From: Gammaproteobacteria bacterium
Lineage (GTDB): Bacteria; Pseudomonadota; Gammaproteobacteria; Nevskiales; Nevskiaceae
Reading direction: 5' to 3'
DNA: 64,000 nt
NCBI GenBank assembly: GCA_016182805.1
Contig: JACPFV010000011.1
Coordinates: forward strand, 1 to 64,000
Shown here: positions 8,724 through 28,938 of the stretch, in pieces
Layout of the letters: every line of letters starts with the position of its first letter
Position numbering within the stretch: position 1 is the first letter of the stretch
The notes under the pieces: model-generated
Told to the model about the DNA's origin: nothing
Databases searched by the model: none
What the model saw: only the letters and a program-made list of their open reading frames with translations
Program-made: the position numbers and the translations under genes

Positions 8724-9202
8724 GCGGCTTTCTTCTTCGCCAGCTTCTCGCAGTGTTGTTTCAGCCCCGCGGTCTGCCGGTCGAAGCCGTCCTGCACTTT
8801 CTTGATCGGCGCAAAGCCGGCGAACAGGCCGGTGAGCTGGATATGCGTGCGGTAGCGCGTGCGGCCGTCCGGCAGTTGCTCCAGTTCCTGGGTGCGGTGG
8901 CTGCGCACCAGGTTCATCGCGGCCAGCGGGCCGCCGAAGTTGTAGGCGTAGCAGGCGCGCAGGATTTTGTCGGGACCGGGGGCGGGCGCGTCCACCTGCA
9001 CGATGCGCTCGTTCGAGATCAGGCCCTTGCCGTCGGCCCAGCGCACGTGCAGGGCGATGGGGGCGCCGACCTTCGGTCCGCCCGGGCAGTCCACGCGGGG
9101 CGTGAAGGGGTTCCAGTCGCCGTAGCGGGGCAGGTCCATCATCACTTGCCAGACCCGTTCAATCGGGGCTTCGATGATGGCTTCAGCGTGTGCGGTCGTC
9201 AT
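8720..9202 (-). CDS. SRPBCC (START-like) family protein
   Basis: Small hydrophobic-ligand-binding fold protein, 160 residues. The N-terminus [20 protein letters not shown] is the typical first strand and helix of polyketide cyclase/dehydrase-like SRPBCC proteins, followed by [16 protein letters not shown]. No catalytic residues can be assigned. Its ATG overlaps the stop of the aldolase gene (ATGA at 9199-9202), making it the last gene of the meta-cleavage operon and suggesting a ligand or intermediate of steroid or aromatic degradation. That role is inference from position only. Confidence 0.75.
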
Positions 9203-10239: not shown

Positions 10240-10249
10240 GGCCGCTCCT

Positions 10250-11161: not shown

Positions 11162-11175
11162 CGCGATTCCTTGCC

Positions 11176-11973: not shown

Positions 11974-12797
11974 CAGCCGTTCCGCAGGAAATCGAGGCAG
12001 GCGCGATTGAAGTAATCGCGGTGCTCGACCATGACCCAGTGCCCGCAGCGATTCACCAGCGTCATTTTCGCGTTGGGGCAACCGGCCGCGATCTTGGCCG
12101 CGCCGCCGACCGGGTTGAACTGGTCGTTCATGCCCCAGAAGCCCAGCACCGGGCACTGGATTTCGGGCAGGCGCGCGGTCATGTTCGGCACGCGCATGGT
12201 CGAAAGCACCGTGCGCGGTTGCAGGGCGCAGGTGGCGACGCGTTCGTCCACGATGTCGTCGGTGACCAGGCGCGGATCGTGGAGTTGCAGCGTCAGCAGT
12301 TCGCGCATGGACTGCCGGGTCAGCGGGCCGGCGGCGAACAGGGGCATCATCTTCTTGATGCCTTCCATCTGGAAGTACGCCTCGCGCTCCTCGACGCCGC
12401 CGGGCGCCATCAGGATCAGCTTGGAAACCTTGTCCGGGTGGGCGAGGGCGTAGCCCAGGGCAATGGCGCCGCCCAGCGAATTGCCCAGCAGCACGCAGCG
12501 CGGCAGCTTGAGCGCGGCGATGAAGCCGTGCAGCGCGCCGATGAAGAAGTCCAGGACGTACTCCCGGTTCTCCGGCTTGTCGGAAAGTCCGTAGCCCGGC
12601 AGGTCCGGCACCAGGGTGCGAAAGCCCGCCTCGGCGAACGCCGGGTAGTTCTTCTTGAAGTTGCTGTAACCGCTTGCGCCGGGGCCGCTGCCGTGGATGA
12701 ACACGATCGGCTCGCCGCTGCCGGCCTCGTGGTAGTGCAGGCGTAAACCGTCCGCGGTGGTGAGGTAGCGGCCTTCGGGGATCGGCGGGTTGGACAT
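11973..12797 (-). CDS. meta-cleavage product C-C hydrolase (TesD/HsaD/MhpC-like)
   Basis: Alpha/beta-hydrolase of 274 residues that cuts a carbon-carbon bond in ring-cleavage products. The oxyanion region is FIHGSGPGASGYSNF near residue 35. The nucleophile elbow is LLGNSLGGAIAL, the acid lies in WGMNDQFNPV, and the histidine in NRCGHWVMVEH, so the triad is complete. HGSGPGA is characteristic of BphD/MhpC/HsaD enzymes. It is the first gene of a five-gene operon with hydratase, dehydrogenase, aldolase and SRPBCC protein. A perfect TCGTCC-N4-GGACGA dyad lies 61 bp before the start. The KshA-type oxygenase and ketosteroid isomerase nearby make a steroid substrate (4,9-DSHA type) likely. No extradiol dioxygenase is in the window. 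Confidence 0.9.
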   Translation of the reverse strand: MSNPPIPEGRYLTTADGLRLHYHEAGSGEPIVFIHGSGPGASGYSNFKKNYPAFAEAGFRTLVPDLPGYGLSDKPENREYVLDFFIGALHGFIAALKLPRCVLLGNSLGGAIALGYALAHPDKVSKLILMAPGGVEEREAYFQMEGIKKMMPLFAAGPLTRQSMRELLTLQLHDPRLVTDDIVDERVATCALQPRTVLSTMRVPNMTARLPEIQCPVLGFWGMNDQFNPVGGAAKIAAGCPNAKMTLVNRCGHWVMVEHRDYFNRACLDFLRNG

Positions 12798-12858
12798 GGG
12801 GCGCGGCGCGGGCCAGGGCGGACGCAGGGGATGTTCCGGGACGGCGCCGGCGACTGCT

Positions 12859-12874
12859 TCGTCCTTTTGGACGA
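12859..12874 (-). promoter_or_regulatory. Candidate steroid-regulon operator 1 (hydrolase operon)
   Basis: Dyad TCGTCC-TTTT-GGACGA with perfect 6-bp arms, 61 bp before the start of the C-C hydrolase operon. Five related sites occur at 14621, 19371, 20229, 21882 and 23732, each before a steroid-related transcription unit. Reading toward the hydrolase, a weak GAACAT hexamer begins 22 nt after the dyad, which would put the dyad centre near -42.5. The divergent motA-like gene begins 116 bp on the other side. Confidence 0.6.
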
Positions 12875-12989: not shown

Positions 12990-13805
12990 GTGGACTTGGC
13001 GACTTTGATCGGGCTCCTGGCCGGTGCGGCGCTGGTTGCCGTGGCGATCGCCCTGGGTCCCAGCGTGACGGCGTTCGTGGACGTTCCCAGCCTGCTGATC
13101 GTGGTCGGCGGCGCCGTCTCGGCAACCATGATGCGCTTCCCCCTGCGCCAGTGCTTCGGCGCCTTCCGCACCGCGCTGTCCAAGGCGTTCCGCGAGCAGG
13201 TCGAGACGCCGATGGAGCTGATCAAGGCGGCCCAGCACCTGGCCGAGGTCGCGCGCAAGTCCGGCCTGATCTCCCTGGAAAAGGAGACGGTCGCCAACGA
13301 GATGCTGGCGCGCGGCGTGCGCATGGCGGTAGACGGCCGCGACGCCGAGCACATCCGCGAGGTGCTGTCCAAGGAGATCAACACCGCGATCGAGCGCAGC
13401 CAGATGGGCGAGCGCATATTCCGCGCGCTCGGCGACTCAGCGCCCGCTTTCGGCATGATCGGCACGCTGGTCGGCCTGGTGCAGATGCTGACCAATCTGT
13501 CCGATCCGAAATCCATCGGGCCGGCGATGGCGGTTGCCCTGCTGACCACGCTGTACGGCGCCGTGCTCGCCAACCTCGTGTTCATGCCGATCGCGGACAA
13601 GCTACAGGCGCGCGCGCTGGACGAGGCGAACAAGAAGGCGCTGATCCTGCACGGCGTGCTCGGCATCCAGCGCAGCCTCAACCCGCGCGTCCTCTACGAA
13701 CAGCTCGAAGCGTACCTGCCGCGCGGGCAGGGCGACGCGCAGCAGCCGGAGGCGCGCGGCGGCGCGCCGTCGCAGACCGGCAAGGCGCCCGGCGGGGCGC
13801 GTTAG
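12990..13805 (+). CDS. MotA/PomA-like stator protein
   Basis: Membrane subunit of an ion-driven stator, 271 residues from a GTG start. It has four hydrophobic segments: LIGLLAGAALVAVAIALG, VPSLLIVVGGAVSATMM, and a C-terminal pair including FGMIGTLVGLVQMLTNL and MAVALLTTLYGAVLANLVFMP. The cytoplasmic loop carries the usual charged helices. It lies 7 nt before the MotB-like gene, so they form a pair. No other flagellar gene is in the window; such isolated pairs can be secondary flagellar stators (MotCD/PomAB type). The tail after residue 245 is Gly/Ala/Gln-rich. Confidence 0.88.
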   Translation: MDLATLIGLLAGAALVAVAIALGPSVTAFVDVPSLLIVVGGAVSATMMRFPLRQCFGAFRTALSKAFREQVETPMELIKAAQHLAEVARKSGLISLEKETVANEMLARGVRMAVDGRDAEHIREVLSKEINTAIERSQMGERIFRALGDSAPAFGMIGTLVGLVQMLTNLSDPKSIGPAMAVALLTTLYGAVLANLVFMPIADKLQARALDEANKKALILHGVLGIQRSLNPRVLYEQLEAYLPRGQGDAQQPEARGGAPSQTGKAPGGAR

Positions 13806-13812
13806 GACGGTC

Positions 13813-14610
13813 ATGGCAACTCCCATCCAGACCTTGGGCAGTCCGGCGTGGATGACCACCTTCGCCGACCTGATGTCGCTGATGATGACGTTCTTCGTGC
13901 TGATGTTCGCGATGTCGGAGACGGACGTGGCCAAGTACCGCGCCATCGCCGGCTCGCTGGCGGAGGCCTTTGGCGGCGCGCAGCTGGACGACCGCGAGAC
14001 CCGGATGCTGCGCGGGATCGCCGCGGCCGAGAGCCGCGACGGGGCGCAAGGCACGCCCGCCGAGCCCGCCGAGCCCGCCGAGTCCGCCGCGCAGGAGGCG
14101 CGCGGGTCGGCGCCGCCGCCGGACCAGGTCCTGCTGGAACGGCTCCAGGCCGGCCTGGTCGACGAACTTGCGGCGGAGCGCCTCATCGTCGAGCGCCACG
14201 AGCGCAAGGTGATCGTCCGCTTTCCCGAGCACATCTCGTTCCGGTCGGGGCGGGACGAGCTGGTTCCGGAGGCGGTGCCCCTGGTGCGGAAGGTGGTCGG
14301 CCTGCTGGGCGCGGACGCGGTCCGCATCACCGTCGCCGGCCATACCGACGACCGTCCGATTTCCACCCAGCGGTTCCGCTCGAACTGGGACCTGTCCGCG
14401 GCGCGCGCCGTGTCGGTGGCGGAGCAGGTGCTGGCCGGCGGGATCGACAGCGGCCGCCTCGTGGTCAGCGGCCACGCCGATACGCAGTCGCTTGAGCCCA
14501 ATGCCACCGAGGACGGCCGCGCCCGCAACCGGCGCGTGGAGATCGTCGTGGAATATCCCGCCCCGGCGGACGCGGGTGCGGATGCCGCGGCCGATCCGCC
14601 TCCGGCGTAG
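13813..14610 (+). CDS. MotB/PomB-like stator protein with OmpA domain
   Basis: Peptidoglycan-anchored stator subunit, 265 residues. The single N-terminal membrane helix is TTFADLMSLMMTFFVLMFAM near residues 15-35, whose Asp in TFADLM is the ion-binding residue in the family. A PAEPAEPAES-type linker follows near residues 80-95. The C-terminal OmpA/MotB domain contains VAGHTDDRPI and FRSNWDLSAARAVSVAEQVL. It is paired with the MotA-like gene upstream. The next gene, an SDR, starts after a candidate operator at 14621. Confidence 0.9.
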   Translation: MATPIQTLGSPAWMTTFADLMSLMMTFFVLMFAMSETDVAKYRAIAGSLAEAFGGAQLDDRETRMLRGIAAAESRDGAQGTPAEPAEPAESAAQEARGSAPPPDQVLLERLQAGLVDELAAERLIVERHERKVIVRFPEHISFRSGRDELVPEAVPLVRKVVGLLGADAVRITVAGHTDDRPISTQRFRSNWDLSAARAVSVAEQVLAGGIDSGRLVVSGHADTQSLEPNATEDGRARNRRVEIVVEYPAPADAGADAAADPPPA

Positions 14611-14620
14611 CCCGCCGATA

Positions 14621-14636
14621 TCACCCGTTCGGACGA
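14621..14636 (+). promoter_or_regulatory. Candidate steroid-regulon operator 2 (SDR-DUF3604 unit)
   Basis: TCACCC-GTTC-GGACGA, fitting TCRYCC-N4-GGRYGA, lies 56 bp before the SDR start at 14693. A TAGGAT hexamer at 14659-14664, 22 nt after the dyad, could be the -10 element and would centre the dyad at -42.5. The two arms are not perfectly complementary, but each matches the half-site consensus. Confidence 0.5.
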
Positions 14637-14692
14637 CAGGAAGCCTCCCCCAAACGCCTAGGATGATGGCCTGCGCGGGGGGCAGGCGGGCG

Positions 14693-15460
14693 ATGGCGGA
14701 TCACGCAAGAGTCGTGCTGGTGACCGGCGGCGCCAAGGGCGTTGGCCGCGGTGTCGGCGAGCGGTTCCTGGCGGCGGGGGCGCGCGTCTTCGTGTGCGGC
14801 CGCGAGACGCCGGCGGAGCTTCCGGCCGCCGGCGGGCGCGCCGCCGAGTTCATCCCTGCGGACGTCCGCGACGTCCAGGCGCGCGACGCGCTGTTCGCGG
14901 AAATCCTGGCCCGCGCCGGGCGTCTCGACGTCCTGGTGAACAATGCCGGCGGCGCGCCTTTCGCATTGGCCGACAAGGCATCGCCGCGCTTTCACGAGGC
15001 GATCGTCCAGCTCAATCTGCTGGCGCCGCTGCACCTGGCGCAGAAGGCCAACGCCTTGATGCAGGCGCAGGACGGCGGCGGCGTGATTGTGTTCGTCGCC
15101 AGCATCGGCGCGCTGCGGCCCTCGCCGGGCACCGCGGCGTACGGCGCGGCCAAGGCGGGCATCGTGAGCCTCACGCAGTCGCTGGCGGTGGAATGGGCGC
15201 CCAAGGTGCGCGTGGTCGCGGTCAGCCCGGGTCTGGTCCGGACCGAGCAGTCGCATCTGCATTACGGCGACGAGGTCGGCATCGCCGCGGTCGCCGCCAC
15301 CGTCCCGCTCGGCCGCCTGGCGACGCCGGGCGACATCGGCGAGGCCTGCGTGTGGCTGGCCTCGCCGGCGGCGGCCTACGCCTCCGGCACCAACCTGGTC
15401 CTGCACGGCGGCGGCGAGCGCCCGGCGTTTCTTTCCGCGGCGCAGGTGAACAAGCCCTGA
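14693..15460 (+). CDS. Short-chain dehydrogenase/reductase
   Basis: Classical NAD(P)-dependent SDR, 255 residues from ATG 14693. The cofactor motif is VTGGAKGVGRGVGERF near residue 10, NNAG near residue 83, the catalytic Ser lies in VFVASIGALRPS, and the YxxxK pair in AAYGAAKAGIVSL. The C-terminal ATPGDIGEACVWLASPAA and YASGTNLVLHGGGE are typical. It is first in a tight unit with the DUF3604, PPIase and HupE-like genes (9-nt, 0-nt and overlapping junctions) and follows candidate operator 2. A hydroxysteroid or hydroxyacyl-CoA substrate is plausible from context but unproven. Confidence 0.9.
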   Translation: MADHARVVLVTGGAKGVGRGVGERFLAAGARVFVCGRETPAELPAAGGRAAEFIPADVRDVQARDALFAEILARAGRLDVLVNNAGGAPFALADKASPRFHEAIVQLNLLAPLHLAQKANALMQAQDGGGVIVFVASIGALRPSPGTAAYGAAKAGIVSLTQSLAVEWAPKVRVVAVSPGLVRTEQSHLHYGDEVGIAAVAATVPLGRLATPGDIGEACVWLASPAAAYASGTNLVLHGGGERPAFLSAAQVNKP

Positions 15461-15469
15461 GGGGGACGC

Positions 15470-17413
15470 ATGCGGCGGACACTCGGCATCTTGCTGCTGC
15501 CACTGCTGGCGGCCTGCACGGACGGGGGCGGCGGCGCGCCGAAGCTCGCTCCGGCCGGTGAAGTGCGCTGCCATCACTACAACGCGAAGCGCCAGCCGTT
15601 TTTCGGCGACCTGCACGTCCACACCAAGTACTCGCTCGATGCCAACACGCAGGGCACCATCATCGATCCGCACGAGGCGTACCGCTTCGCGCAGGGCGAG
15701 GAGGTCGGCATCCAGCCGTACACGGCCGAGGGCGTGCCGTTGCGGCATGCGCAGCTCGCGCGGCCGCTGGATTTCACCGCCGTCACCGACCACGCCGAGC
15801 TGTTCGGCGAGACCGAGATCTGCACCAATCCGGAACTGGACGGCTACGACTCGCCGGAATGCCGTTTCTACCGCGCCGCCCCGGCGCAGGCCTTCATCTT
15901 CTTCAACCTGATGGGACCGGGCCTGTTCGGGCTGCCGACCGCCGACGGCGGCGAGGCGATCCCGCGCCTGCCGTTCTGCGGGCTTGGCGGCGAGCGCTGC
16001 ATCGAGGCCTCGAAGACGCCCTGGCGCGACATCCAGCGCGCCGCCGACGCCTTCTACGACCGCAGCGCCGAATGCCGCTTCACCACCTTCGTCGGCTACG
16101 AATGGACCGGCGCGCCGGAGTCCAACAATCTGCACCGCAACGTCATCTTCGAATCGGAAATCGTGCCGGAGATTCCCGCGAGCTATTACGAGACGCCGGA
16201 GCCGGAGCTGCTGTGGCAGGCGCTGGACGAGCACTGCCGCGGCGACGAGGGCTGCAACGTGCTGACCATCCCGCACAACTCCAATCTCAGCGGCGGCCTG
16301 ATGTTTGCCCGGCAGCACCCCGACGACAAGGCGATGGACGCGGAATATGCGCAGGCGCGCCAGCAGAACGAGCCGTTGGCGGAGATCTACCAGCACAAGG
16401 GGCAGTCGGAGTGCCTCGGCACCGGCGGCGCCGGCGCGGCGGACGAGCAATGCGGCTTCGAGTTGCTGCCGTACCGCAACTTCGCCGGCAGCCAGGTGCA
16501 CCCGGCGTTCAGCGGCCCGCCGCTGGAGCAGGACTTCCTGCGCTCGGCGCTTAAGGAGGGCTTGCGGCTGGAGCAGGCGCTGGGCGTCAATCCGTTCAAA
16601 TACGGCCTCATCGGCAGCTCCGACACCCACCTCGGCACGCCGGGCCTCGTCAACGAATCCGGCTATCCGGGGCATGGCGGCGCCGGCGGCAGCGCGCGCA
16701 ACGAAGTTCCACCGGGGCTGTCGGACCGCATCGAGAACAGTCCCGGCGGCCTGGCCGTGCTGTGGGCCGAACAGAACACGCGGCCCTCGCTGTTCGCGGC
16801 GATGCGCCGGCGCGAGGCGTACGCGACCAGCGGCACGCGGCCGGTGGTCCGCTTCTTCGCGGGCTGGGACCTGCCGCAGGGGTTGTGCGCCAGCCACGAC
16901 TTCGCCGGCGAAGGCTACCGCCGCGGAGTGCCGATGGGATCGGACCTGCCTGCGTCGCGGGCCGCCGGAGCGCGGCCGCGCTTCGCGGTGTCGGCGCTGC
17001 GCGACCCCAGCGCGGATGGCGAGTCTGCCGAGCCCTTGCAGCGCATCCAGATCGTCAAGGGTTGGATTGTCGACGGCGACAAGCGCGAGAAGGTTTACGA
17101 AGTCGCCGGCGACCCGAACAACGGCGCCAGCGTGGACCTGTCCACCTGCGAAACCTCCGGTCGCGGATTCGCCAGCCTGTGCACCGTCTGGGAAGACCCG
17201 GACTTCGATGCCGCGCAGCCGGCGTTCTACTACGCCCGCGTGCTGGAGAATCCGAGCTGCCGCTGGGCTACGCGGCAATGCCTTGCGGCCAAGGTGGATT
17301 GCAGCGACGCCGATTCGGTGCCCAAGGAATTTGCCGGTTGCTGCGATGCGAACTACCCGAAGACGGTGCAGGAGCGCGCCTGGACTTCGCCGATCTGGTA
17401 TCGGCCGCAGTAA
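15470..17413 (+). CDS. DUF3604 (PHP-like) predicted lipoprotein
   Basis: Protein of 647 residues with a lipoprotein signal LLLPLLAAC (lipobox cysteine near residue 16). The DUF3604 domain begins FFGDLHVHTKYSLDA near residue 46, with metal-ligand-like histidines (HVHT), then FTAVTDHAELFGE, VLTIPHNSNLSGG and YGLIGSSDTHLGTPG, a pattern like PHP-fold metallo-phosphoesterases. Many cysteines in the body suggest disulfides outside the cytoplasm. It is followed without a gap by the PPIase gene. The enzymatic function of DUF3604 is not settled. Its place in an operon with an SDR under a candidate steroid operator hints at a link to steroid metabolism; that is inference. Confidence 0.85.
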   Translation: MRRTLGILLLPLLAACTDGGGGAPKLAPAGEVRCHHYNAKRQPFFGDLHVHTKYSLDANTQGTIIDPHEAYRFAQGEEVGIQPYTAEGVPLRHAQLARPLDFTAVTDHAELFGETEICTNPELDGYDSPECRFYRAAPAQAFIFFNLMGPGLFGLPTADGGEAIPRLPFCGLGGERCIEASKTPWRDIQRAADAFYDRSAECRFTTFVGYEWTGAPESNNLHRNVIFESEIVPEIPASYYETPEPELLWQALDEHCRGDEGCNVLTIPHNSNLSGGLMFARQHPDDKAMDAEYAQARQQNEPLAEIYQHKGQSECLGTGGAGAADEQCGFELLPYRNFAGSQVHPAFSGPPLEQDFLRSALKEGLRLEQALGVNPFKYGLIGSSDTHLGTPGLVNESGYPGHGGAGGSARNEVPPGLSDRIENSPGGLAVLWAEQNTRPSLFAAMRRREAYATSGTRPVVRFFAGWDLPQGLCASHDFAGEGYRRGVPMGSDLPASRAAGARPRFAVSALRDPSADGESAEPLQRIQIVKGWIVDGDKREKVYEVAGDPNNGASVDLSTCETSGRGFASLCTVWEDPDFDAAQPAFYYARVLENPSCRWATRQCLAAKVDCSDADSVPKEFAGCCDANYPKTVQERAWTSPIWYRPQ

Positions 17414-19370: not shown

Positions 19371-19386
19371 TCGTCCCATCGGGTGA
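19371..19386 (+). promoter_or_regulatory. Candidate steroid-regulon operator 3 (atypical SDR)
   Basis: TCGTCC-CATC-GGGTGA lies 62 bp before the SDR start at 19449 and only 24 bp after the HupE-like stop. It matches TCRYCC-N4-GGRYGA exactly. A weak GACAAT hexamer at 19410-19415, 23 nt after the dyad, is a possible -10. Confidence 0.55.
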
Positions 19387-19448
19387 GGCTGGGGCGTGGA
19401 CGGCGTACCGACAATGCCGGCAACCATAACAGGCCGTCGAGGGTGCTC

Positions 19449-20222
19449 ATGACACAAAAAGATTTTCCGGAAGGCGCGGTCGTGGTATTCGGCGGCAGCG
19501 GGGGGATCGGCCAGGTGGTCGCGAAATCGTTTGCGCAGGCCGGGACCGATGTTGCGGTCGCTTACCGCTCCAAACGCGAAGTGGCCGAACGCGTCGCGGC
19601 CGACATCCACGGCCTGGGCCGCAAGGCCTCGCTGCACGCGGCCGACGTGACCGATGCCGCACAGGTGCGCGCGGCGGTGGACGAGGCGGCGCGGGCGCAC
19701 GGGCGCATCCACACGGTGGTGTTCGGTGCCGGGCCGGTGGTGGAGCAGGTGCTGCTGGGCGAGACCGGCGAGTCGCTGTGGCGGCGTTCGCTGGACGTCG
19801 AGGTCAACGGTTTCTTCAACGTGGTGCAGGCGACGCTGCCCTATCTGCGCGCGGCGGGCGGCGGCTCGTACGTGCATCTCGGCTCGGCCGGGCATCTGTG
19901 GTGGCCGCCCAAGGACGGGCTTTCTGTGGTGCCCAAGGCGGCCAACGAGGCGCTGGTCAGGGGCATCGCCAAGGAAGAGGGGCGCAACAACATCCGCGCA
20001 AATTCCGTCCTCGTGGGCGTGATTGAGGCCGGCATGTTCCTGGAGCTGCTGCGCCGCGGTGTGTTCGACCGGAAGTGGATCGACGAGACGCAGAAGCTGC
20101 TCGCGCTCAAGCGCTGGGGCAAGCCGGAAGAGGTCGGCCATGCCGCGGTGTTCCTGGCCTCGAACAAGGGCGCGTACATCACCGGCCAGCAGATCAACGT
20201 GTCCGGCGGCTTCGGGGTCTAG
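19449..20222 (+). CDS. SDR-fold protein lacking the catalytic tyrosine
   Basis: Short-chain dehydrogenase fold, 257 residues from ATG 19449. The cofactor loop is VVFGGSGGIGQVVAKSF, and the C-terminus VFLASNKGAYITGQQINVSGG is typical of the family. The active site is unusual: after the serine in HLGSAGHLWWPP, the YxxxK position reads SVVPK (GLSVVPKAANEAL), so serine replaces the proton-donating tyrosine. The NNAG motif is also replaced by FGAG. It may be a non-redox SDR, a different chemistry, or a binding protein. It sits between the HupE-like gene and kshA, with candidate operators on both sides. Confidence 0.82.
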   Translation: MTQKDFPEGAVVVFGGSGGIGQVVAKSFAQAGTDVAVAYRSKREVAERVAADIHGLGRKASLHAADVTDAAQVRAAVDEAARAHGRIHTVVFGAGPVVEQVLLGETGESLWRRSLDVEVNGFFNVVQATLPYLRAAGGGSYVHLGSAGHLWWPPKDGLSVVPKAANEALVRGIAKEEGRNNIRANSVLVGVIEAGMFLELLRRGVFDRKWIDETQKLLALKRWGKPEEVGHAAVFLASNKGAYITGQQINVSGGFGV

Positions 20223-20228
20223 TTCCCG

Positions 20229-20244
20229 TCACTCAAACGGGTGA
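20229..20244 (+). promoter_or_regulatory. Candidate steroid-regulon operator 4 (kshA)
   Basis: TCACTC-AAAC-GGGTGA lies 58 bp before the kshA start and 7 bp after the preceding SDR stop. It deviates from TCRYCC-N4-GGRYGA at one base, and the arms pair at 5 of 6 positions. The -10 is unclear (TACCAA or CAAACT, 19-22 nt after). Confidence 0.5.
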
Positions 20245-20302
20245 TGTGCCGCCGCATCGCGGATACCAAACTGCACCGCAATCGCAGAGAGGAGCCAAGC
20301 CT

Positions 20303-21412
20303 ATGGCCGCCGTCATGAAGACAGGAACCGCGCCGATACACAAGATCGAAGCCAAGGCGCCGCCGGAGCGCTACGCGCGCGGCTGGCACTGCCTGGGCCT
20401 CGCGTCCGACTACAAGGGCGGCAAGCCGCATTCGCTCAACATCTTCGGCACGCGCCTGGTGGTGTTCCAGGGCGCGGACGGCCGGTTGAATATCCTCGAT
20501 GCCTGGTGCCCGCACATGGGCGCCGACCTCGGCATCGGCGAGGTCAAGGGCGACTCGGTGGTGTGCAAGTTCCACGGCTGGTCCTGGGGCGGCGACGGCG
20601 TGTGCAACCACATCCCGTACGCCAAGCGCATCCCGCCCAAGGCGCGCATCAAGAGCTGGCCGACGCTGGAAGAGAACAGGATGCTGTTCGTGTGGAACGA
20701 CCCGGAGGGCAACCCGCCGCCGCCGGAGGTGCGCATCCCGCGCATTGCGCCGGTGTTCTCGGGCGAGTGGTCGGACTGGTCGATCGTCAAGTGGACCATC
20801 CACAACAACTGCCGCGAGCTGATCGACAACATCGCCGACATGGCGCACTTCGGCCCGGTGCATGGCGGCAGCGGCGTGGTCTATTTCGCCAACATCTTCG
20901 ACGCGCACAAGGCGACGCAGGTCATGGTCGGCACGTTCGAGAACCTCGGCGGCAAGGACGACTACCTGACGACGGTCGCGAGCTACTACGGCCCCGCGTA
21001 CCAGATCACGCACATGTTCGGCAGCATGCAGGGCTATCCGGTGGAGTCGATCCTGCTCAACTCGCACACGCCGATCACGCCCAACAGCTTCGACCTACGC
21101 TTCGGCGTGATGGTGAAGAAATTCCCCGGCATGTCGAAGGAAGCCTGCGACGCCATGGTCAAGCAGTACGTCGACATGACCAACAAGGCGTTCGGCGAGG
21201 ACGTGCAGATCTGGCACAACAAGGTGCGCGTCGACAACGCCATGCTGTGCGACGGCGACGGCCCGATCGTCCAGAACCGCCAGTGGTACGAGCAGTTCTA
21301 CCTGGACGCCGCCGCGGTGCCGCCGCAGCAGAAGGCCCGCCGCGTGGTCGAGATCGACAAGGGCGTGCTCAAGGAGAAGCCCAGGCTGGTCCACGCCTTC
21401 GACGAGGCGTAG
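20303..21412 (+). CDS. kshA: KshA-type 3-ketosteroid 9alpha-hydroxylase oxygenase (Rieske)
   Basis: Oxygenase component of a Rieske non-haem iron monooxygenase, 369 residues from ATG 20303, with a GAGAGGAG ribosome site about 10 nt before it. Rieske ligands are C69 and H71 (CPHMGADLG) and C88 and H91 (CKFHGWSW). The mononuclear iron motif NIADMAHFGPVH gives D179, H182 and H187, close to the positions known in KshA. KshA hydroxylates C9 of 3-ketosteroids, which with KstD opens ring B. The needed reductase (KshB) and KstD are not in the window. It is flanked by a candidate operator and by the ketosteroid isomerase gene. Another steroid-specific Rieske oxygenase is the main alternative. Confidence 0.87.
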   Translation: MAAVMKTGTAPIHKIEAKAPPERYARGWHCLGLASDYKGGKPHSLNIFGTRLVVFQGADGRLNILDAWCPHMGADLGIGEVKGDSVVCKFHGWSWGGDGVCNHIPYAKRIPPKARIKSWPTLEENRMLFVWNDPEGNPPPPEVRIPRIAPVFSGEWSDWSIVKWTIHNNCRELIDNIADMAHFGPVHGGSGVVYFANIFDAHKATQVMVGTFENLGGKDDYLTTVASYYGPAYQITHMFGSMQGYPVESILLNSHTPITPNSFDLRFGVMVKKFPGMSKEACDAMVKQYVDMTNKAFGEDVQIWHNKVRVDNAMLCDGDGPIVQNRQWYEQFYLDAAAVPPQQKARRVVEIDKGVLKEKPRLVHAFDEA

Positions 21413-21430: not shown

Positions 21431-21817
21431 TCAGGCCGGTCCCAGCAGCTGCATGTCGCCCGGTCCCCAGTAGGCGCGCATCGACGCGAACTTGCCGGTC
21501 GCGTCGAAGGTCATCACGTCGATCACGCGGATCAGCGCGCGGCCCTGCGGCATGTTGAGCTGGACGTCGAAGGCCATGGCCGCCGCGTTGCCGTGCGAGG
21601 CGCGGATCGGGGCCGCCAGCGCCAGCTTGGCGCCGGTGGCGACCGCCATCTTGTAGAACGGCCCGATCCTGGCCTTGCCCACCAGCGGCGCCTTGCCGAC
21701 CGGGTCCTCCACCGTCGCGTCGTCGGCGTACAGCGACACGATGCCGTCCACGTCCGAGCGGTTGAAGGCGTCGATGTAGGCCTGCATGGCCTGCTTCATC
21801 GTCTGTTCGCTGACCAT
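21431..21817 (-). CDS. ksi: Steroid delta5-isomerase (ketosteroid isomerase)
   Basis: Protein of 128 residues that moves the C5=C6 double bond of 3-keto-5-ene steroids to C4=C5. From ATG 21817 the catalytic tyrosine is Tyr14 (QAYIDAF) and the base Asp38 (DDATVEDPVG), exactly the numbering of the Comamonas enzyme, which supports this start over upstream ones. A later acidic residue in RVIDVMTFDATG (near 100) fits the third catalytic position. AYWGPGDMQL is near the end. It is convergent with kshA (18-bp gap) and has candidate operator 5 upstream. Linkage of a ksi gene to a LuxR regulator recalls the Comamonas testosteroni steroid locus. Confidence 0.93.
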   Translation of the reverse strand: MVSEQTMKQAMQAYIDAFNRSDVDGIVSLYADDATVEDPVGKAPLVGKARIGPFYKMAVATGAKLALAAPIRASHGNAAAMAFDVQLNMPQGRALIRVIDVMTFDATGKFASMRAYWGPGDMQLLGPA

Positions 21818-21881
21818 CGTCGGTGCGCTCCGCGCGGTTGGTGGCGCGCGTAATGGTCCATCACGGGGTCGCCGGGCGGGA

Positions 21882-21897
21882 TCGTCCCAACGGACGA
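21882..21897 (-). promoter_or_regulatory. Candidate steroid-regulon operator 5 (ksi)
   Basis: TCGTCC-CAAC-GGACGA, a perfect 6-bp dyad with a 4-bp spacer, lies 64 bp before the ksi start and about 200 bp before the divergent LuxR gene. On the ksi side a GACCAT hexamer lies 23 nt after the dyad. Arms are identical to operator 1. Confidence 0.6.
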
Positions 21898-21956
21898 GCA
21901 CGGACGCCGCCGCATGGCGCATGCTGACCCCGGGATGGCGCAGGCCCGCCCGGCGC

Positions 21957-22100: not shown

Positions 22101-23315
22101 ATGTCCATGTCCGCGATCCAGCGATCGGCGCACAGCGCCCAGGTCATACCCATGAAGGCGGCGGGCGGCAGCCTGCCCGCCGTGGTGGACGGCGCGACCC
22201 TGGCGCGGCTCGACAAGCTGCTGTCGGCGATCTACGACGGCCCCACGGAGTCGCCGCCCTGGCAGACCGCGCTGCAGCTCATGCGCGAGTACCTCAAGGC
22301 CGCGCACGTCACGCTGATGCTGCGCCCGCCGTCGCCGGAGAGCACCGGCGTGATGATCAACACCGGCAGCGTCAATGCGCAGGCGGTGGTGTCGTACGAG
22401 ACGCATTTCTTCGCCCTCGACCCGTTCGTGCGGATCCCGGAGGGCGAAGTCGTCACGGCCGAGGAGCTGATCGGCCGCCAATGGCTGCAAAGCCCCATCT
22501 ACCAGGAATACCTCAAGCCGCTCGACATCCGGCACCTGCTCGGCGCCGACATCTACACCAAGGACGGCATCGAGTGCCGCTTCCGCGTCACCCGCGCGCA
22601 CGACGCCCATCCGTTCAACGCGGAAGACAAGGCGCTGTGCCGCTTCCTGCTGCCGCATCTGAAGCGCTCGATCCAGTTGCACGCCCGCCTCGACTTCCTG
22701 GAATGCGAGCGCCAGCTGTTCGCCGGCACCGTCAACCGTCTGCTGCTGGGCATGATCAGCTTCACGCCCGCCGGCACGATCCTGGAGATGAACCAGGAGG
22801 CGCGGCGCATCCTGGGCGAGAAGGACGGCATCTGCCTGTCCGGCAACACCCTGCACGTCGACAGCAGCCAGGAGAGCCGCGAGCTTCAGCGCATGATCCG
22901 CCAGGCCCTGGGCGGTGCGAACGGCGGCGAGGGGCCCGGCATGGTCGAGGCGATGTCGGTCACGCGGCCGTCGGGCCGCGCCAAGCTCGGCATCGTGGTG
23001 CGCGCGGTGCCGCCCGGCCAGTGGTCCGGCAGCAAGCAGCGCCCGGCCGTGGCGGTGTTCCTGCGCGATCCGGAGCAGAACAGCGCGCAGCCGTCGCAGG
23101 AGATCGTGCGCCGCGTGTTCGGCCTGACGCGCATGGAGGCGGCGCTGGCGCTGCTGCTGGCCGAGGGCCTGACCCTGGACGAGGCGGCGGAAAAGCTCAA
23201 CGTGCGCCGCAACACCGCGCGCACCCATCTGCGCTCGATCTTCTGCAAGACCGGCGTGACGCGCCAGACCATGCTGGTGCGGATGCTGCTGAACAGCGTG
23301 ATTTCGCTCGGCTGA
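22101..23315 (+). CDS. LuxR-family transcriptional regulator (TeiR-like candidate)
   Basis: Protein of 404 residues with a good ribosome site (AGGGAGAGGG) before ATG 22101. The C-terminal LuxR helix-turn-helix spans about residues 335-400: GLTRMEAALALLLAEGLTLD, AAEKLNVRRNTARTHLRSIF and CKTGVTRQTMLVRML. The long N-terminal part has a PAS-like segment (LLLGMISFTPAGTILEMNQE). The length and architecture resemble TeiR, the LuxR-type activator of steroid genes in Comamonas testosteroni (about 390 residues). Placement between ksi and an SCP2 gene, amid six copies of one dyad, makes it the best candidate regulator of the local steroid genes. The ligand is unknown. Confidence 0.85.
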   Translation: MSMSAIQRSAHSAQVIPMKAAGGSLPAVVDGATLARLDKLLSAIYDGPTESPPWQTALQLMREYLKAAHVTLMLRPPSPESTGVMINTGSVNAQAVVSYETHFFALDPFVRIPEGEVVTAEELIGRQWLQSPIYQEYLKPLDIRHLLGADIYTKDGIECRFRVTRAHDAHPFNAEDKALCRFLLPHLKRSIQLHARLDFLECERQLFAGTVNRLLLGMISFTPAGTILEMNQEARRILGEKDGICLSGNTLHVDSSQESRELQRMIRQALGGANGGEGPGMVEAMSVTRPSGRAKLGIVVRAVPPGQWSGSKQRPAVAVFLRDPEQNSAQPSQEIVRRVFGLTRMEAALALLLAEGLTLDEAAEKLNVRRNTARTHLRSIFCKTGVTRQTMLVRMLLNSVISLG

Positions 23316-23371: not shown

Positions 23372-23695
23372 TTACAACTTCGCCAGCTTCTCCGCGTCGA
23401 AGAACGACGACAGGCGCTGCGCCAGCATCAGGTCGCCGTCGACCTGGAGCTTGCCGGTCATGAACGCCATCATGCCGTTCAGCTCGCCCTTCATGAGCTG
23501 CACGAGGTCGCCGTCCTCCATGGTCAGGGAGACGTCCGGGCTCGGCGCGCTGCCGACGGTGACGGTGCAGTTGCCGCTCTGGATCGTCGCGTACACCGGC
23601 TGCGAGATGTTGAACTGGAGCACGCAGTTCGCGTCGGCGGCGGCGCCCGCGTTGAAGGCGGCGGGGAGATTCTGCAGGAATTCGACGGCGCTCAT
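23372..23695 (-). CDS. SCP2 sterol-binding domain protein
   Basis: Single-domain sterol carrier protein 2 fold, 107 residues, the usual length of stand-alone bacterial SCP2 proteins. Typical features are the N-terminal EFLQNLPAAFN helix, DVSLTMEDGDLVQLMKGELN and the C-terminal MMAFMTGKLQVDGDLMLAQRL helix lining the hydrophobic tunnel. It binds or shuttles steroids, fatty acids or acyl-CoAs. It has candidate operator 6 just 36 bp before its start and a clear terminator after its stop, so it is a monocistronic unit within the steroid cluster. Confidence 0.9.
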   Translation of the reverse strand: MSAVEFLQNLPAAFNAGAAADANCVLQFNISQPVYATIQSGNCTVTVGSAPSPDVSLTMEDGDLVQLMKGELNGMMAFMTGKLQVDGDLMLAQRLSSFFDAEKLAKL

Positions 23696-23731: not shown

Positions 23732-23747
23732 TCGCCCGCTCGGACGA
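23732..23747 (-). promoter_or_regulatory. Candidate steroid-regulon operator 6 (SCP2 gene)
   Basis: TCGCCC-GCTC-GGACGA lies 36 bp before the SCP2 start, matching TCRYCC-N4-GGRYGA. A second half-site GGACGA lies at 23763-23768. On the SCP2 side a TAGGAT hexamer lies only 3 nt after the dyad, so the geometry differs from the other sites and could mean repression or another start point. Confidence 0.45.
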
Positions 23748-23820
23748 CGCAATGCGCAATTCGGACGAGGTGGCCCCGCCGGTCGGGCCGTAGGCTCGGC
23801 CCGACCGGCGGCGCGTTCCG

Positions 23821-26800
23821 TCATGCCGCGGCGCGCAGTTCCGTCGCGGCGGCGCGCACGCGCTGCTCGTCGCGGCCGATGTAGAGATACATCGCCGGGA
23901 CGACGTAGAGCGTGAACAGCGTGCCGATGGTCATGCCGGCCGCGATCACCATGCCCATCGAGAAGCGCGCGGCGGCGCCGGGGCCGCTGGCCAGCAGCAG
24001 CGGCACCATGGCGACCACCAGCGCCGCGGTGGTCATCAGCACCGGCCGCAGGCGGATGCTGGCGGCCTCCTCGATCGCCTCGCGCTTGGACAGGCCGGCG
24101 TTCTGCTGGAGCTTGTTGGCGAACTCCACGATCAGGATGCCGTGCTTGGAGATGACGCCGATCAGCGTCACCAGGCCGACCTCGGTGTAGATGTTGCGCG
24201 TCATGCCGGGGAACGCGGTCAGGCGCATGCCGTTGGTGATGCCGAAGATGTTGAGGATCAGCAGCGCGCCGCAGATCGACATCGGCACCGTGACCAGCAT
24301 GATGATCGGGTCGCGGAACGACTCGAACTGCGCCGACAGCACCAGGTAGATGGCGATCAGCGCGAAGGCGAAGGTGACGAGCAGCGCCGCGCCTTCCTGC
24401 TTGAACTGGCGCGAGGGGCCGGCGTAGTCGATCTGGAAGCCGGCGGGCAGGACCTCGTCGGCAATGCCTTCCAGCACCGCCAGCGCCTCGCCCTGCGGCA
24501 CGCCGGGCCGCGGCACGCCGATCAGCACGTTGGCGTTGAGCTGCTGCGCGTGCTCGACCGTGCGCGGGCCGGTCTGGTGCCGGATCGCGACCAGCGTGGC
24601 GATGGGGATGAGCTGGCCGCCGGCGGCGCGCGTGTAGTAGCCGGCGAGCTGCTGCGGGTTCAGGCGCTCGCCGCGCTCGGCCTGCTGGATCACGCGGTAC
24701 GAGCGGTTCTCGAACGAGAAGCGGTTGACCTCGCCGCCGGCCAGCAGCGCCGACAGGTCGGCCGACAGGCGCTGCATGTCCACGCCCAGCAGCGCGGCCT
24801 TGTCGCGGTCCACCTCGATCACCGCTTCCGGGCGGTCGATGCGCAGGCGCGGCGCCAGGAACATGAACTTCTTGGTCGCCATCGCGCGGCCGATGATCTC
24901 GTCGCCGAGGCGGGCGAGGGACTCGGGCGGGAAGGTGGACTTGAGCACGAACTCGACCGGGTAGCCCTGGCCGGGCGTCGGCAGCGGCGGCGGCTCGATC
25001 ACCTGGCTGCGCAGGCCGGCGACCTGCGACAGCTTGCCGTTGACGTCGGCCACGATCTGCTTGGACGAGCGCTCGCGCTCGGCCCAGGGCGACATGATCA
25101 GGCCCATGAAGCCGGTGTTGGTGCTGCCGGCGCCGCCGACGCTGAAGGTGAAGATGTGCTTCACGTCGGGGTCGGACAGCACGATCTTCTGCGCCTGGCG
25201 GAAATACTGGTCGAGGTACTCCTGCGAGGAATAGCCGTCCGACTCGTTGATGGAGAATGCGAAGCCGGCGTCCTCGGCCGGCGCCAGCTCGCGCGGCGTC
25301 ATGCGCCACAGCAGCACGCAGGACACCAGCACGATGAGGCCGAACACGCCGATCACGTGGTGCGTGTCCAGCGCGCCGTGCAGGCGGCGCTTGTAACCGC
25401 TGCGCAGCCACTCGAACGCGGCGTCCAGGCGCTCGGCCAGCCGCCCTTCGCCGTGCGCCGGCTTCATCAGCCGCGCGCACATCATCGGCGTCAGCGTCAG
25501 CGCGATCACGCCGGAGATCAGCACCGCGCCGGCCAGGGTGAAGGCGAACTCCGTGAACAGCTTGCCGGTGATGCCGGAGAGGAAGCCGATCGGCGCGTAC
25601 ACCGCCATCAGCGTGACGGTCATGGCGACGACCGGGCCGACCAGTTCGCGCGCGCCGCGCACGGCGGCGTCGTACGGCTTCATGCCGCCCTCGATGTGGC
25701 GGTGCACGTTCTCCATGACGATGATCGCGTCGTCCACCACCATGCCGATCGCCAGCACCATCGCCAGCAGCGTCAGCAGGTTGATCGAGAAGCCCATCGC
25801 GTACATCAGGAACAGTGCGCCGACCAGCGACAGCGGCACCGTGATCGCCGGGATCAGCGAGTTCCGCAGCGAGCCCAGGAACAGGAAGATGACCGCGACG
25901 ACGATCGCGACCGCCTCGATCAGCGTAGTCCGCACTTCGCGGATCGCGTTGCGGATGTAGACCGTGCTGTCGTAGCCGATCACGGCGTCGAGCCCTTCGG
26001 GCAGGCCCTTGAGGATGTCCGGCCACACCTCGCGCACCGCGGCGGTGACGTCGAGCACGTTGGCCTCGGGCCGCGTCTCCACGCCGATGAAGATCGCCGC
26101 GTCGCCGTCCCAGCCGGCGCCGCCGTCGTAGGTCTCGGCGCCCAGGATCACGTCGGCCAGGTCGCCCAGGCGCACGACCGAGGCGCCGTCGGACTTGATC
26201 GCGATCTGCCTGAACTCGTCGGGCGTGCGCAGGTCGGTGCGCGCCGACAGGCCGATGCGCACGTAGTTGCCCTTGGCCTCGCCGATCGCCGACAGCACGT
26301 TCTGGCTGCGCAGGCGCGCGTAAACCTCGCTCGCGGTGAGGTTGTGCGCGGCCAGCCGGTCCGGCTTGAGCCAGACGCGCATGGCGTAGGTGCGGGCGCC
26401 GATGATCTTGGCCTTCTCGACGCCGGCGATCGAGGCGAGCTGCGGCTCGACCACGCGCATCAGGTAGTCGGTGATCTGGCTCTTGCTCAGCACCTTCGAG
26501 TAGAAGGACATGTACATCGCCGCCGTGCCGCGGCCTTCCGCGACCTCGATCACCGGGTCCTCGGAGCCGTCCGGGAGCTGGTTGCGCAGCTTGTTGACCT
26601 TGGCCGAGATCTCGGTCAGCGCCTCGTTGGGGTCCTTGTCCAGGCGCAGGTTGGCGGTGATCGTGGTCGAGCCGTGGCCGGTCGAGGAGGTGAGGAAGTC
26701 GATGCCGTCGGCGGTGGCGATCTCGCGCTCCAGCGGCGTGGTCACGAAGCCTTCCATCAGCTCCGGGTCGGCGCCGGGATACATCACGCCGACGTTGATC

Positions 26801-26931
26801 TGGGCGTTGCGCAGCTCCGGGTACTGCCGGATCGTGAGGTCGAAGCCGGAGCGCAGGCCGAGCAGCAGGATGACCAGGCTGACCACCGTCGCCAGGACGG
26901 GGCGCTTGATGAAGATGTCGGTGAAGTGCAT
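23821..26931 (-). CDS. RND efflux transporter inner-membrane subunit (HAE1/AcrB family)
   Basis: Proton-driven multidrug exporter, 1,036 residues, the normal length. It begins MHFTDIFIKRPVLATVVSLV, the classic RND N-terminus. Helix 4 carries the proton-relay aspartate pair in IGMVVDDAIIVMENVHRH near residue 405. Two periplasmic loops with internal symmetry and the C-terminal GVISKHGILIVEFANKL segment are present. It starts 1 nt before the adaptor stop region and is co-directional with the adaptor and TetR genes. Next to steroid catabolism it may export steroids or bile acids, but substrate assignment is inference. No outer-membrane factor gene is present here. Confidence 0.94.
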   Translation of the reverse strand: MHFTDIFIKRPVLATVVSLVILLLGLRSGFDLTIRQYPELRNAQINVGVMYPGADPELMEGFVTTPLEREIATADGIDFLTSSTGHGSTTITANLRLDKDPNEALTEISAKVNKLRNQLPDGSEDPVIEVAEGRGTAAMYMSFYSKVLSKSQITDYLMRVVEPQLASIAGVEKAKIIGARTYAMRVWLKPDRLAAHNLTASEVYARLRSQNVLSAIGEAKGNYVRIGLSARTDLRTPDEFRQIAIKSDGASVVRLGDLADVILGAETYDGGAGWDGDAAIFIGVETRPEANVLDVTAAVREVWPDILKGLPEGLDAVIGYDSTVYIRNAIREVRTTLIEAVAIVVAVIFLFLGSLRNSLIPAITVPLSLVGALFLMYAMGFSINLLTLLAMVLAIGMVVDDAIIVMENVHRHIEGGMKPYDAAVRGARELVGPVVAMTVTLMAVYAPIGFLSGITGKLFTEFAFTLAGAVLISGVIALTLTPMMCARLMKPAHGEGRLAERLDAAFEWLRSGYKRRLHGALDTHHVIGVFGLIVLVSCVLLWRMTPRELAPAEDAGFAFSINESDGYSSQEYLDQYFRQAQKIVLSDPDVKHIFTFSVGGAGSTNTGFMGLIMSPWAERERSSKQIVADVNGKLSQVAGLRSQVIEPPPLPTPGQGYPVEFVLKSTFPPESLARLGDEIIGRAMATKKFMFLAPRLRIDRPEAVIEVDRDKAALLGVDMQRLSADLSALLAGGEVNRFSFENRSYRVIQQAERGERLNPQQLAGYYTRAAGGQLIPIATLVAIRHQTGPRTVEHAQQLNANVLIGVPRPGVPQGEALAVLEGIADEVLPAGFQIDYAGPSRQFKQEGAALLVTFAFALIAIYLVLSAQFESFRDPIIMLVTVPMSICGALLILNIFGITNGMRLTAFPGMTRNIYTEVGLVTLIGVISKHGILIVEFANKLQQNAGLSKREAIEEAASIRLRPVLMTTAALVVAMVPLLLASGPGAAARFSMGMVIAAGMTIGTLFTLYVVPAMYLYIGRDEQRVRAAATELRAAA

Positions 26932-26932
26932 G

Positions 26933-28147
26933 TCAGCCCTCTCCGGGGTTCGGATTCAACTCCACCTGCGGCATCACCTCATTGTTCACGATCACCGGCT
27001 GCTGGTTGCGCAGCTTGAGCAGGCCGGAGGTCGCGACCTGCTCGCCGGCCATGACGCCTTCCAGGATGGCGACGAAGTCGCCGCGTATTTCGCCGACCTT
27101 GACGAAGCGCTGCACGACCTCCATCTGCGGCGCGGCCGGCTGGCCGGCGGCGGGCGCCGGGGCCGCTTCCGGCTTGGCCGCCTCGGCGGGCGCCTTGCGC
27201 GGCTGCACCAGGAACACCGAGCTGCCGTACGAGCTGTAGCTGATCGCGGTGCGCGGCACCGCCAGCACCTCGGTCTTGCCCGGCAGGTCCAGGCGCAGGC
27301 GGCCGAACATGCCGGCGCGCAGCCGCCGGTCCTTGTTGGCGAGCCGTCCGCGCACGATGAAGTTGCGCGTGGCCGCGTCGATCCTGGGCTCGATCGCGAG
27401 GATCCGGCCGCCGAACGTCCGCCCCGGATAGGCGTCCACGGCGACGGTGATCGCCAGGCCCGGTCGCACCACCGACAGGTGCATCTCCGGCAGCGCGAAG
27501 TCGATGTCGATCGGGTCGAGCGATTGCAGCGTGACGATGGCCGTGCCCGGCGCCAGGTACTGGCCGAGATTGACGTGGCGGATGCCCAGCACGCCGGCGA
27601 AGGGCGCGCGCAGGTCCTTCTTCGCCACCTTGGCCGCCTGCGCCTCGACCGCGGCGCGCGCGGCGGCGAGTTCCGCCAGCGCGGCGTCGTAATCGGACTT
27701 CGATACCACGTGGGATTCCAGCAGCTTGGCGCGACGGTCGCGGTTCAGCTCGGCCAGCTCGGCCTGCGCCTGCAGGCGCTTCAGTTCGCCGACCTCGGTG
27801 GAGGCGTCGAGCGTCACCAGGCGCTCGCCGGCGTCGACGATGTCGCCGGACTCGAAATGGATCGCCTGAACGATGCCGCCGGACTCGGTCGTGACCTCGG
27901 TGCCGTTCACCGCGACGAAGCTGCCCGGCGCCTCCAGCGAATTGTCCCAGCTCATCGGTGCGACCGCGGCGGTCGAGATCGTGGCCGGCGGCACCGGCAT
28001 GGCGTCGAAGTACCGGTTCATCGCCTTGGCGCCCATCCACTTCATGCCGAACACGGCGCCGAAGACCAGGGCGGTGACGAGCAGCATCAGGAACATGCGC
28101 AGTTTCATGGATCCGCTTCTCTTGGGATTGGTATCGGTGGGGTTCAT
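26933..28147 (-). CDS. RND efflux periplasmic adaptor subunit
   Basis: Membrane fusion protein, 404 residues from ATG 28147, which overlaps the TetR stop (ATGA). An internal ATG at 28108 (MKLRMFLMLLVTALVFGAV) would give 391 residues and places the membrane anchor at the very start. Features in order are an anchor helix, a lipoyl/barrel half (GGIVQAIHFESGDIVDAGE), a short coiled-coil hairpin (ELKRLQAQAELAELNRDRRA), the second lipoyl half (DLRAPFAGVLGIRHVNLGQY) and beta-barrel domains. An Ala/Pro-rich insert lies near residue 325. It links the RND pump to an outer-membrane channel. Confidence 0.92.
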   Translation of the reverse strand: MNPTDTNPKRSGSMKLRMFLMLLVTALVFGAVFGMKWMGAKAMNRYFDAMPVPPATISTAAVAPMSWDNSLEAPGSFVAVNGTEVTTESGGIVQAIHFESGDIVDAGERLVTLDASTEVGELKRLQAQAELAELNRDRRAKLLESHVVSKSDYDAALAELAAARAAVEAQAAKVAKKDLRAPFAGVLGIRHVNLGQYLAPGTAIVTLQSLDPIDIDFALPEMHLSVVRPGLAITVAVDAYPGRTFGGRILAIEPRIDAATRNFIVRGRLANKDRRLRAGMFGRLRLDLPGKTEVLAVPRTAISYSSYGSSVFLVQPRKAPAEAAKPEAAPAPAAGQPAAPQMEVVQRFVKVGEIRGDFVAILEGVMAGEQVATSGLLKLRNQQPVIVNNEVMPQVELNPNPGEG

Positions 28148-28938
28148 GGCGCGGTGCGCGGCGTTGCGGCCGCGCGCGGGGCGGCTCCGGCGGCCGGGGC
28201 CGCGTGGCACACGTCGTTGAATACGTCGCGACAGATGCGCTTGATCAGCGCGTCCAGCGCGCGCTTGTCCGCCGGGTCGGCCAGCGGCCGCCAGCCGAAG
28301 CCGTTCAGCAGGTGCTGCAAGTGGCGGCACATGAGGACGTACGGCTCGCGGATGCTGAAGTCCTCCAGCACGCCCTCGGCGTGGACCAGGTTGTGGAAGC
28401 CGAAGCACAGCGACCACAGGCCGGTGGCGAGCTCCTGCGGCGTCTGCCGCTGCAGCTCCAGGTCGCCGGCCGCCACCGCCTCCTCGACGATGCCGGCCAC
28501 GATCGCGCCGATCGGCTGGTTCGCCGCCAGCAGATCCTCGCGCCGGCGGGCGGAGGCCGCGCGCCACACCACCTCGCACAGCGCGTACTGCGCCAGGCGG
28601 AAATGCTCCGGGTTGCGCCGCACGAAAATCATGTCGGCGACGCCGATGGCGAACATGCGGTCGCGGGTGCTGGCGTTCCACTGCGCCACGCGCCGGAACA
28701 GGCCGGCGTGCTCGCGCAGGTTCTGCGTGGTCAGCGCGACCAGCAGATCCTCCTTGGAGGCGAAGTGCAGGTACAGCGTGCCGACCGCGTACTCGCAGCG
28801 GTCGGCCACGCGCGACATCTGCAGCTTGAGCAGGCCGTCCTCGCGCACCAGCTCGCGCGCGGCATTGAGGAAAAGCTGCTCTCGCTCCGCCACCTGGCGT
28901 TGGCGGCGCTCGCGGGTGCCCATGTCGGATGCGGCCAT
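28144..28938 (-). CDS. TetR/AcrR family transcriptional regulator
   Basis: Repressor-type regulator, 264 residues from ATG 28938; ATG 28923 is an alternative. The N-terminal helix-turn-helix is FLNAARELVREDGLLKLQMS, then RVADRCEYAVGTLYLHFASK with the family YLHFASKEDLL signature. The ligand domain follows, and the last 25 residues are an Ala/Pro-rich tail. It heads the TetR-adaptor-RND operon with overlapping junctions, so it probably autoregulates the pump. The tRNA-Arg gene lies upstream at 29063 on the other strand. Confidence 0.88.
   Translation of the reverse strand: MAASDMGTRERRQRQVAEREQLFLNAARELVREDGLLKLQMSRVADRCEYAVGTLYLHFASKEDLLVALTTQNLREHAGLFRRVAQWNASTRDRMFAIGVADMIFVRRNPEHFRLAQYALCEVVWRAASARRREDLLAANQPIGAIVAGIVEEAVAAGDLELQRQTPQELATGLWSLCFGFHNLVHAEGVLEDFSIREPYVLMCRHLQHLLNGFGWRPLADPADKRALDALIKRICRDVFNDVCHAAPAAGAAPRAAATPRTAP

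Follow-up and report, generated by a model that had tools for sequence, protein, structure and literature searches.

The 404-residue LuxR-type protein encoded among the steroid-degradation genes of this Gammaproteobacteria bacterium is very probably a one-component, steroid-responsive activator of class II type and of the TeiR/TesR kind, which would bind DNA directly as a homodimer centred near position -42.5 of its target promoters. Its candidate operator is a 16-bp inverted repeat, TCRYYC-N4-GRRYGA. The window, that is, the whole stretch of 64,000 nucleotides analysed here, contains exactly six exact copies of it (at 12859, 14621, 19371, 20229, 21882 and 23732), all six of them intergenic. 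Sites with up to two mismatches to TCGTCC-N4-GGACGA number 25 in the window, against 5.3 expected from shuffles. The preliminary description had placed a 404-residue regulator between ksi and the SCP2 gene, and the ORF at 22101-23315 on the + strand, flanked by these two genes on the - strand, bears this out. The genes and candidate sites are as follows.

22101-23315, + strand: regulator gene, encoding a 404-aa GerE/LuxR-type protein with predicted GAF-like (residues ~31-200), PAS-like (~200-325) and HTH (~330-403) parts
9199-12797, - strand: tesD-E-F-G-like run (hydrolase, hydratase, acetaldehyde dehydrogenase, aldolase), predicted target
14714-15460, + strand: SDR1 gene, predicted target; an upstream ATG at 14693 is possible
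19443-20222, + strand: SDR2 gene, predicted target
20303-21412, + strand: kshA (3-ketosteroid 9alpha-hydroxylase oxygenase; KshA_C, 248 bits), predicted target
21431-21817, - strand: ksi-like SnoaL/NTF2 gene, predicted target
23372-23695, - strand: SCP2 (sterol-carrier-type) gene, uncertain target
12859-12874, - strand: candidate operator TCGTCC-AAAA-GGACGA of the tesD-E-F-G-like run; -10-like GAACAT at 12831-12836 (-), gap 22
14621-14636, + strand: candidate operator TCACCC-GTTC-GGACGA of the SDR1 gene; -10-like TAGGAT at 14659-14664, gap 22
19371-19386, + strand: candidate operator TCGTCC-CATC-GGGTGA of the SDR2 gene; -10-like GACAAT at 19410-19415, gap 23
20229-20244, + strand: candidate operator TCACTC-AAAC-GGGTGA of kshA; -10-like CAAACT at 20267-20272, gap 22
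21882-21897, either strand: candidate operator TCGTCC-CAAC-GGACGA between ksi (-) and the regulator gene (+); GACCAT at 21853-21858 (-, gap 23) towards ksi and CATGCT at 21920-21925 (+, gap 22) towards the regulator
23732-23747, - strand: dyad TCGTCC-GAGC-GGGCGA before the SCP2 gene, with its geometry off and its role uncertain

The hydrolase of the tesD-E-F-G-like run scores under the HsaD equivalog cut-off. Where -10-like hexamers had been proposed 22-23 nt after the dyads at 12859, 14621 and 19371, GAACAT, TAGGAT and GACAAT are indeed present, at gaps of 22, 22 and 23 nt. Extended to six sites, the proposal also fits the kshA, ksi and regulator promoters and fails at the SCP2 site. Using an approximate E. 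coli -10 matrix and scoring each gap of 0-59 nt after the dyad (as the mean hexamer score where several sites were combined), we found the best -10-like hexamer of the 60 offsets at gap 22-23 for the tesD, SDR1, SDR2, kshA, ksi and regulator promoters; the -10-like hexamers of the window are weak. With the hexamer assumed to occupy -12 to -7, a gap of 22 puts the dyad centre at -42.5 and a gap of 23 puts it at -43.5. The -35 slot in that case begins at the last dyad base or just past it, and nothing TTGACA-like is found there.

The SCP2 dyad lies 36 nt from the start codon with a -10-like TAGGAT at gap 3, and no fitting -10-like hexamer is found at gap 22-23; it is possibly a decayed or shifted operator. 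Just upstream of it (23732-23770) is a lone TCGTCC half-site on the - strand which, read as a decayed dyad, has TTAGGA/TAGGAT at gap 23/24. At a related locus (L064), an SCP2 gene is preceded by a good dyad, and TAGTCT follows it at gap 23. Separately, the site at 12859 has a second hexamer at gap 22, TCTTAT, in the direction of motA, which belongs to a motA/motB-like pair (MotA 271 aa, MotB 265 aa; 12990-14610) that separates the tesD-like gene from SDR1. In another relative (L063), the tesD-like and SDR1 genes are divergent and have one operator in common (7294), whose spacer is likewise TTTT; the motor genes therefore look like an insertion into a promoter that both genes formerly shared. 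Between the two steroid SDR genes lies a gene for a full-length DUF3604 protein (571 bits; 15470-17413); after it come a PPIase and a HupE/UreJ-like gene.

The genome assembly, incomplete at 2.07 Mb (~80%), contains 19 dyad matches, ten intragenic and nine intergenic. All but one of the intergenic matches lie at steroid genes, six of them in the window and two on a second contig (C59). One of the latter precedes an operon for a HsaC/TesB-type dioxygenase, CoA transferase, thiolase, NMO and enoyl-CoA hydratase; the other precedes a KstD-like FAD gene that is accompanied by SDR and AMP ligase genes. AATAAT stands at gaps 23 and 21 before this operon and the KstD-like gene, respectively, each time the best of 60 offsets. 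The second steroid locus spans L146:1-16906 (G000:C59), and this contig carries a second KshA_C gene, at C59:10953.

We then compared the operator among relatives. In related-genome pieces of up to 20 kb together with the window, intergenic sequence (86 kb) has 54 sites and coding sequence (659 kb) has two; 33 named Nevskiales-type loci have 44 dyads in 69 kb of intergenic versus three in 555 kb of coding sequence (~120-fold), the two sets overlapping in species and hence not being independent. The kshA operator site is kept before kshA relatives in Nevskiales. A bacterial-genome search with aligned orthologues of the regulator returned 80 loci, in genera that range from Nevskia and Solimonas to Cupriavidus, Paraburkholderia, Pseudomonas, Endozoicomonas, Thauera and Comamonas. 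For the 38 distant loci (regulator 41-54% identical), we ran an unbiased dyad search of upstream regions that covered all trinucleotide pairs at gaps of 0-16 and made no use of the motif. GTC-N6-GAC ranked first (z = 29.8; 180 observed versus 26.5 expected; 36 of the 38 loci), and it ranked no lower than second in each of the Burkholderia-type, Pseudomonas, Endozoicomonas and mixed beta groups when these were analysed singly. The predicted operator of the distant bacteria is TMGTCY-N4-GGACGATG, which is directional, with the promoter-proximal arm better conserved. No site was found within the fetched flank at four of 38 distant, four of 33 near and five of nine paralogue loci. Judged by these sequence comparisons, chance origin of the dyad is excluded. 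The dyad-pair analysis took the place of a count of perfect inverted repeats by gap, in which terminators drowned out the signal.

Some of the loci differ in content. At three Solimonas loci (L098, L099 and L100) the regulator occurs as a second copy (58-64% identical), next to a second kshA that likewise has a kshA-type operator, which suggests duplicated steroid circuits. The homologues of Cupriavidus and Paraburkholderia (L108-L111, L113-L118) would control clusters that have neither tesD-G nor kshA within 10 kb; these include a HsaC-type dioxygenase and CoA transferase in Cupriavidus and an esterase-type hydrolase in Paraburkholderia. The substrate of these clusters may not be a standard steroid.

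The spacing between dyad and -10-like element recurs in both sets. Among the oriented sites of the far set (n = 44), the -10-like signal peaks at gaps 22 (z = 13.0) and 23 (z = 6.2), and in the near set at gap 22 (z = 14.0 for 116 divergent orientations, z = 6.6 for 11 non-divergent ones), all z-scores ignoring relatedness among loci, several of which are related and thus non-independent. A hexamer of more than 4 bits at gap 22 or 23 accompanies 75% of the oriented far sites. The peak at gap 22-23 appears separately upstream of kshA, ksi, SDR1, SDR2 and tesD relatives and is therefore not one conserved promoter counted repeatedly. Among near sites, 33% have a hexamer of more than 2 bits at these gaps towards the regulator, versus 76% towards ksi; autoregulation in Nevskiales is a weakly supported possibility. 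An operator over the -35 slot at a fixed distance to the -10 element, seen as a peak at gap 22/23 in near and far sets alike, is what class II promoters would be expected to show. The preliminary description had equated the dyad, at about -42.5 to -43.5, with the class II position of lux boxes. It is by position alone that the dyad resembles a lux box, its sequence being a different 16-bp inverted repeat with GGAYGA/GGGTGA half-sites.

The same protein could use the same operator for repression, with a dyad that covers the -35 slot blocking RNA polymerase until a steroid releases it, and a LuxR-type repressor of 3,17beta-HSD has been reported in C. testosteroni (as cited in PMC6678751 and PMC8700777). 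We regard this as improbable. The slot contains no TTGACA-like -35, so these promoters should need help, not blocking. The distance to the -10 is constant at 22-23 nt across genes and genera, as expected for polymerase contact, and TeiR/TesR are reported to be positive regulators (PMC8399759, PMC6678751). That the LuxR-type regulator is a candidate activator of the steroid regulon, as first proposed, is mostly supported by these comparisons; activation itself we infer.

The dyad is linked not only to promoters but also to the regulator gene. Genome-wide, the far operator is rare and clustered around the regulator, and its reversed control pattern was never found in the genomes scanned. Comamonas sp. 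lk has five matches, all on the contig of the regulator (matches at 58-88 kb, regulator at 61-62 kb). Of the 15 matches in Thauera sp. 28, 14 share a contig (37-195 kb), and the seven of Pandoraea pneumonica all fall within 34 kb. Across 81 genomes of the genus of Comamonas sp. lk, the three with an orthologue have five, four and eight operators, while the other 78 have at most two and 74 of them none, so that the regulator carriers are exactly the three genomes with at least four operators. A more sensitive search of 90 genomes returned the same three carriers. Among 369 genomes of the class, a single clear orthologue besides our own (G287, >400 bits) comes with six operators, and no other genome has more than three. 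All 20 relatives with a kshA hit of E<1e-60 carry a regulator match of E<1e-80, carriers making up 30 of 61 (hypergeometric 5e-9, kinship ignored). Whole-genome counts of the relaxed Nevskiales pattern did not separate regulator-positive from regulator-negative genomes because its coding background is too high, whereas the tight far consensus does separate them. Dyad, spacing, target set and co-occurrence with the regulator are all computed results.

Another regulator of the steroid cluster might nevertheless bind the dyad, leaving the LuxR-type protein a bystander. TetR (28144-28938) and AraC (38717-39793) genes are near the cluster, and as the loci were picked by the regulator, other conserved neighbours might share the signal. 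We hold this for unlikely: in distant genera, where the neighbourhoods are otherwise different, the dyad is again found around the regulator, and three genomes with strong KshA-like hits and no orthologue (G082, G225 and G307) contain no operators. In addition, the regulator gene itself often has the site immediately upstream (in 30 near and 11 far site orientations), and the TetR gene adjoins an RND efflux pump, which it more likely controls. The link between regulator and dyad, first proposed from a single sequence, gains support from the unbiased dyad search across beta-/gammaproteobacteria, the concordance of presence and absence and the -10-like element at fixed distance, all of them sequence-based. 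The pump itself (AcrB-type with an adaptor and a TetR gene of its own; 23821-28938) lies beside the steroid cluster and might export steroids.

The regulator is a single-copy gene in its genome. Its best Pfam match, GerE (residues 342-395), scores 22.6 bits and so falls slightly short of the curated cut-off of 23.5. This stretch also has weak matches to LuxR-type PDB chains, and a weak match to the NCBIfam model MalT covers residues 338-390; the protein counts as a LuxR/GerE HTH superfamily member, marginal by score. An AlphaFold2 model (mean pLDDT 79.5, pTM 0.61) predicts a helical HTH at the C-terminus, preceded by two sensory-type alpha/beta domains. Foldseek matched it to phytochrome GAF/PAS modules, DhaR(N) and LuxR-type receptors (SdiA, RhlR, TraR), with high rmsd and low TM-scores over the whole chain, and therefore backs the domain types only, without pointing to a close relative. 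In the aligned homologues, an NTAR-T/A-HLRSIF-x-KTGV stretch is nearly invariant; 27 close orthologues were aligned. At residue 375, the Nevskiales proteins have T where nearly all distant homologues have A. As a single change, its running in step with the relaxed Nevskiales operator, where TCATCC and TCACCC are allowed, is suggestive.

These features bear on how the protein acts. TeiR of Comamonas testosteroni has been described as a polar membrane-associated kinase (PMC8399759, PMC6678751), and by extension of that proposal (Gohler 2008, as described there) the regulator could act only through a membrane kinase cascade, with no DNA binding at these genes. This is very improbable, as the Pfam scan of the regulator returned HTH models only and no kinase domain, and the HTH is among the best conserved parts. 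Hydropathy revealed no membrane-type stretch, the 19-residue maximum of 1.36 lying inside the HTH and under the usual membrane-segment level, and the predicted structure resembles GAF/PAS sensory modules and LuxR-type receptors. By sequence, then, neither published trait of TeiR, kinase or polar membrane location, has a counterpart here.

Other traits do agree. TeiR/TesR, a steroid-responsive switch known for 20 years, is a LuxR-type positive regulator within a steroid gene cluster, according to PMC6678751 and PMC8700777, and kshA, ksi, tesD-G and SCP2 surround the regulator here. The resemblance to TeiR noted earlier stands for type, size and steroid neighbourhood, and not for kinase and membrane traits; the regulator here instead comes with a defined operator. 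Set beside TeiR by description, and with a homologue in Comamonas sp. lk that is 41% identical, it is likely a TeiR/TesR member. The literature searched contained no TeiR/TesR operator, its scope leaving aside the primary TeiR papers, so an earlier description is possible.

Comparison with other known systems revealed partial likenesses. LuxR, TraR, SdiA and RhlR share a GerE-type HTH after a GAF/PAS-type sensory part and an inverted-repeat operator near -42.5, but the regulator here is longer, has two sensory-type domains and sits in a metabolic rather than a quorum context, and lux/tra boxes are 18-20 bp as opposed to 16 bp. The Pfam scan found no autoinducer-binding family in the protein, and with neither such a domain nor a lux-type box the pair would fall outside LuxR quorum sensing. 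MalT also has a GerE-type HTH, and the core of its box, GGA(T/G)GA, resembles the GGAYGA half-site; yet MalT is a 900-aa ATPase activator using several boxes, compared with 404 aa and a single inverted repeat here. Palindromic operators at steroid genes are known for KstR/KstR2 and EdcR, but these are TetR-type or other repressors, with operators unlike the present one in sequence, position and sign; that of EdcR, TnnCnnTACnAnTnGTAnnGnnA, lies over the -10 (PMC8700777).

Binding, dimerisation, activation rather than repression, and the ligand are what we infer. As an activator of class II type, the regulator would bind the 16-bp inverted repeat (TCRYYC-N4-GRRYGA here, the TMGTCY form in distant bacteria) as a homodimer through its C-terminal GerE-type HTH. 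Centred near -42.5, the repeat would take the place of the -35 element, leaving a weak -10 as the sole recognisable sigma70 element, and the bound regulator would recruit RNA polymerase in a class II-like manner. Its control may lie with a steroid, or a metabolite derived from one, that the GAF-like/PAS-like part would sense. Predicted targets are the tesD-E-F-G run, the two SDR genes, kshA and ksi, along with the HsaC/TesB-CoA-transferase operon and the KstD-like gene on the other contig.

The regulation of steroid and bile-acid breakdown in proteobacteria has been described as largely unknown (PMC8399759), and tesR-like genes have been said to occur only in C. testosteroni (PMC6895838), a remark with which the apparent homologues in other genera sit uneasily. 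We consider it somewhat more probable than the opposite that TeiR-like regulators across beta-/gammaproteobacteria are cytosolic GAF-PAS-HTH one-component receptors which share a new class II operator, relaxed in Nevskiales, and act by direct binding rather than through a kinase cascade. If so, the shared operator at a fixed class II position would make the steroid regulon readable from genome sequence. This may serve regulon prediction in environmental genomes and provide a promoter part for steroid biosensors, and with a conserved operator at fixed spacing, how TeiR/TesR acts would become directly testable.
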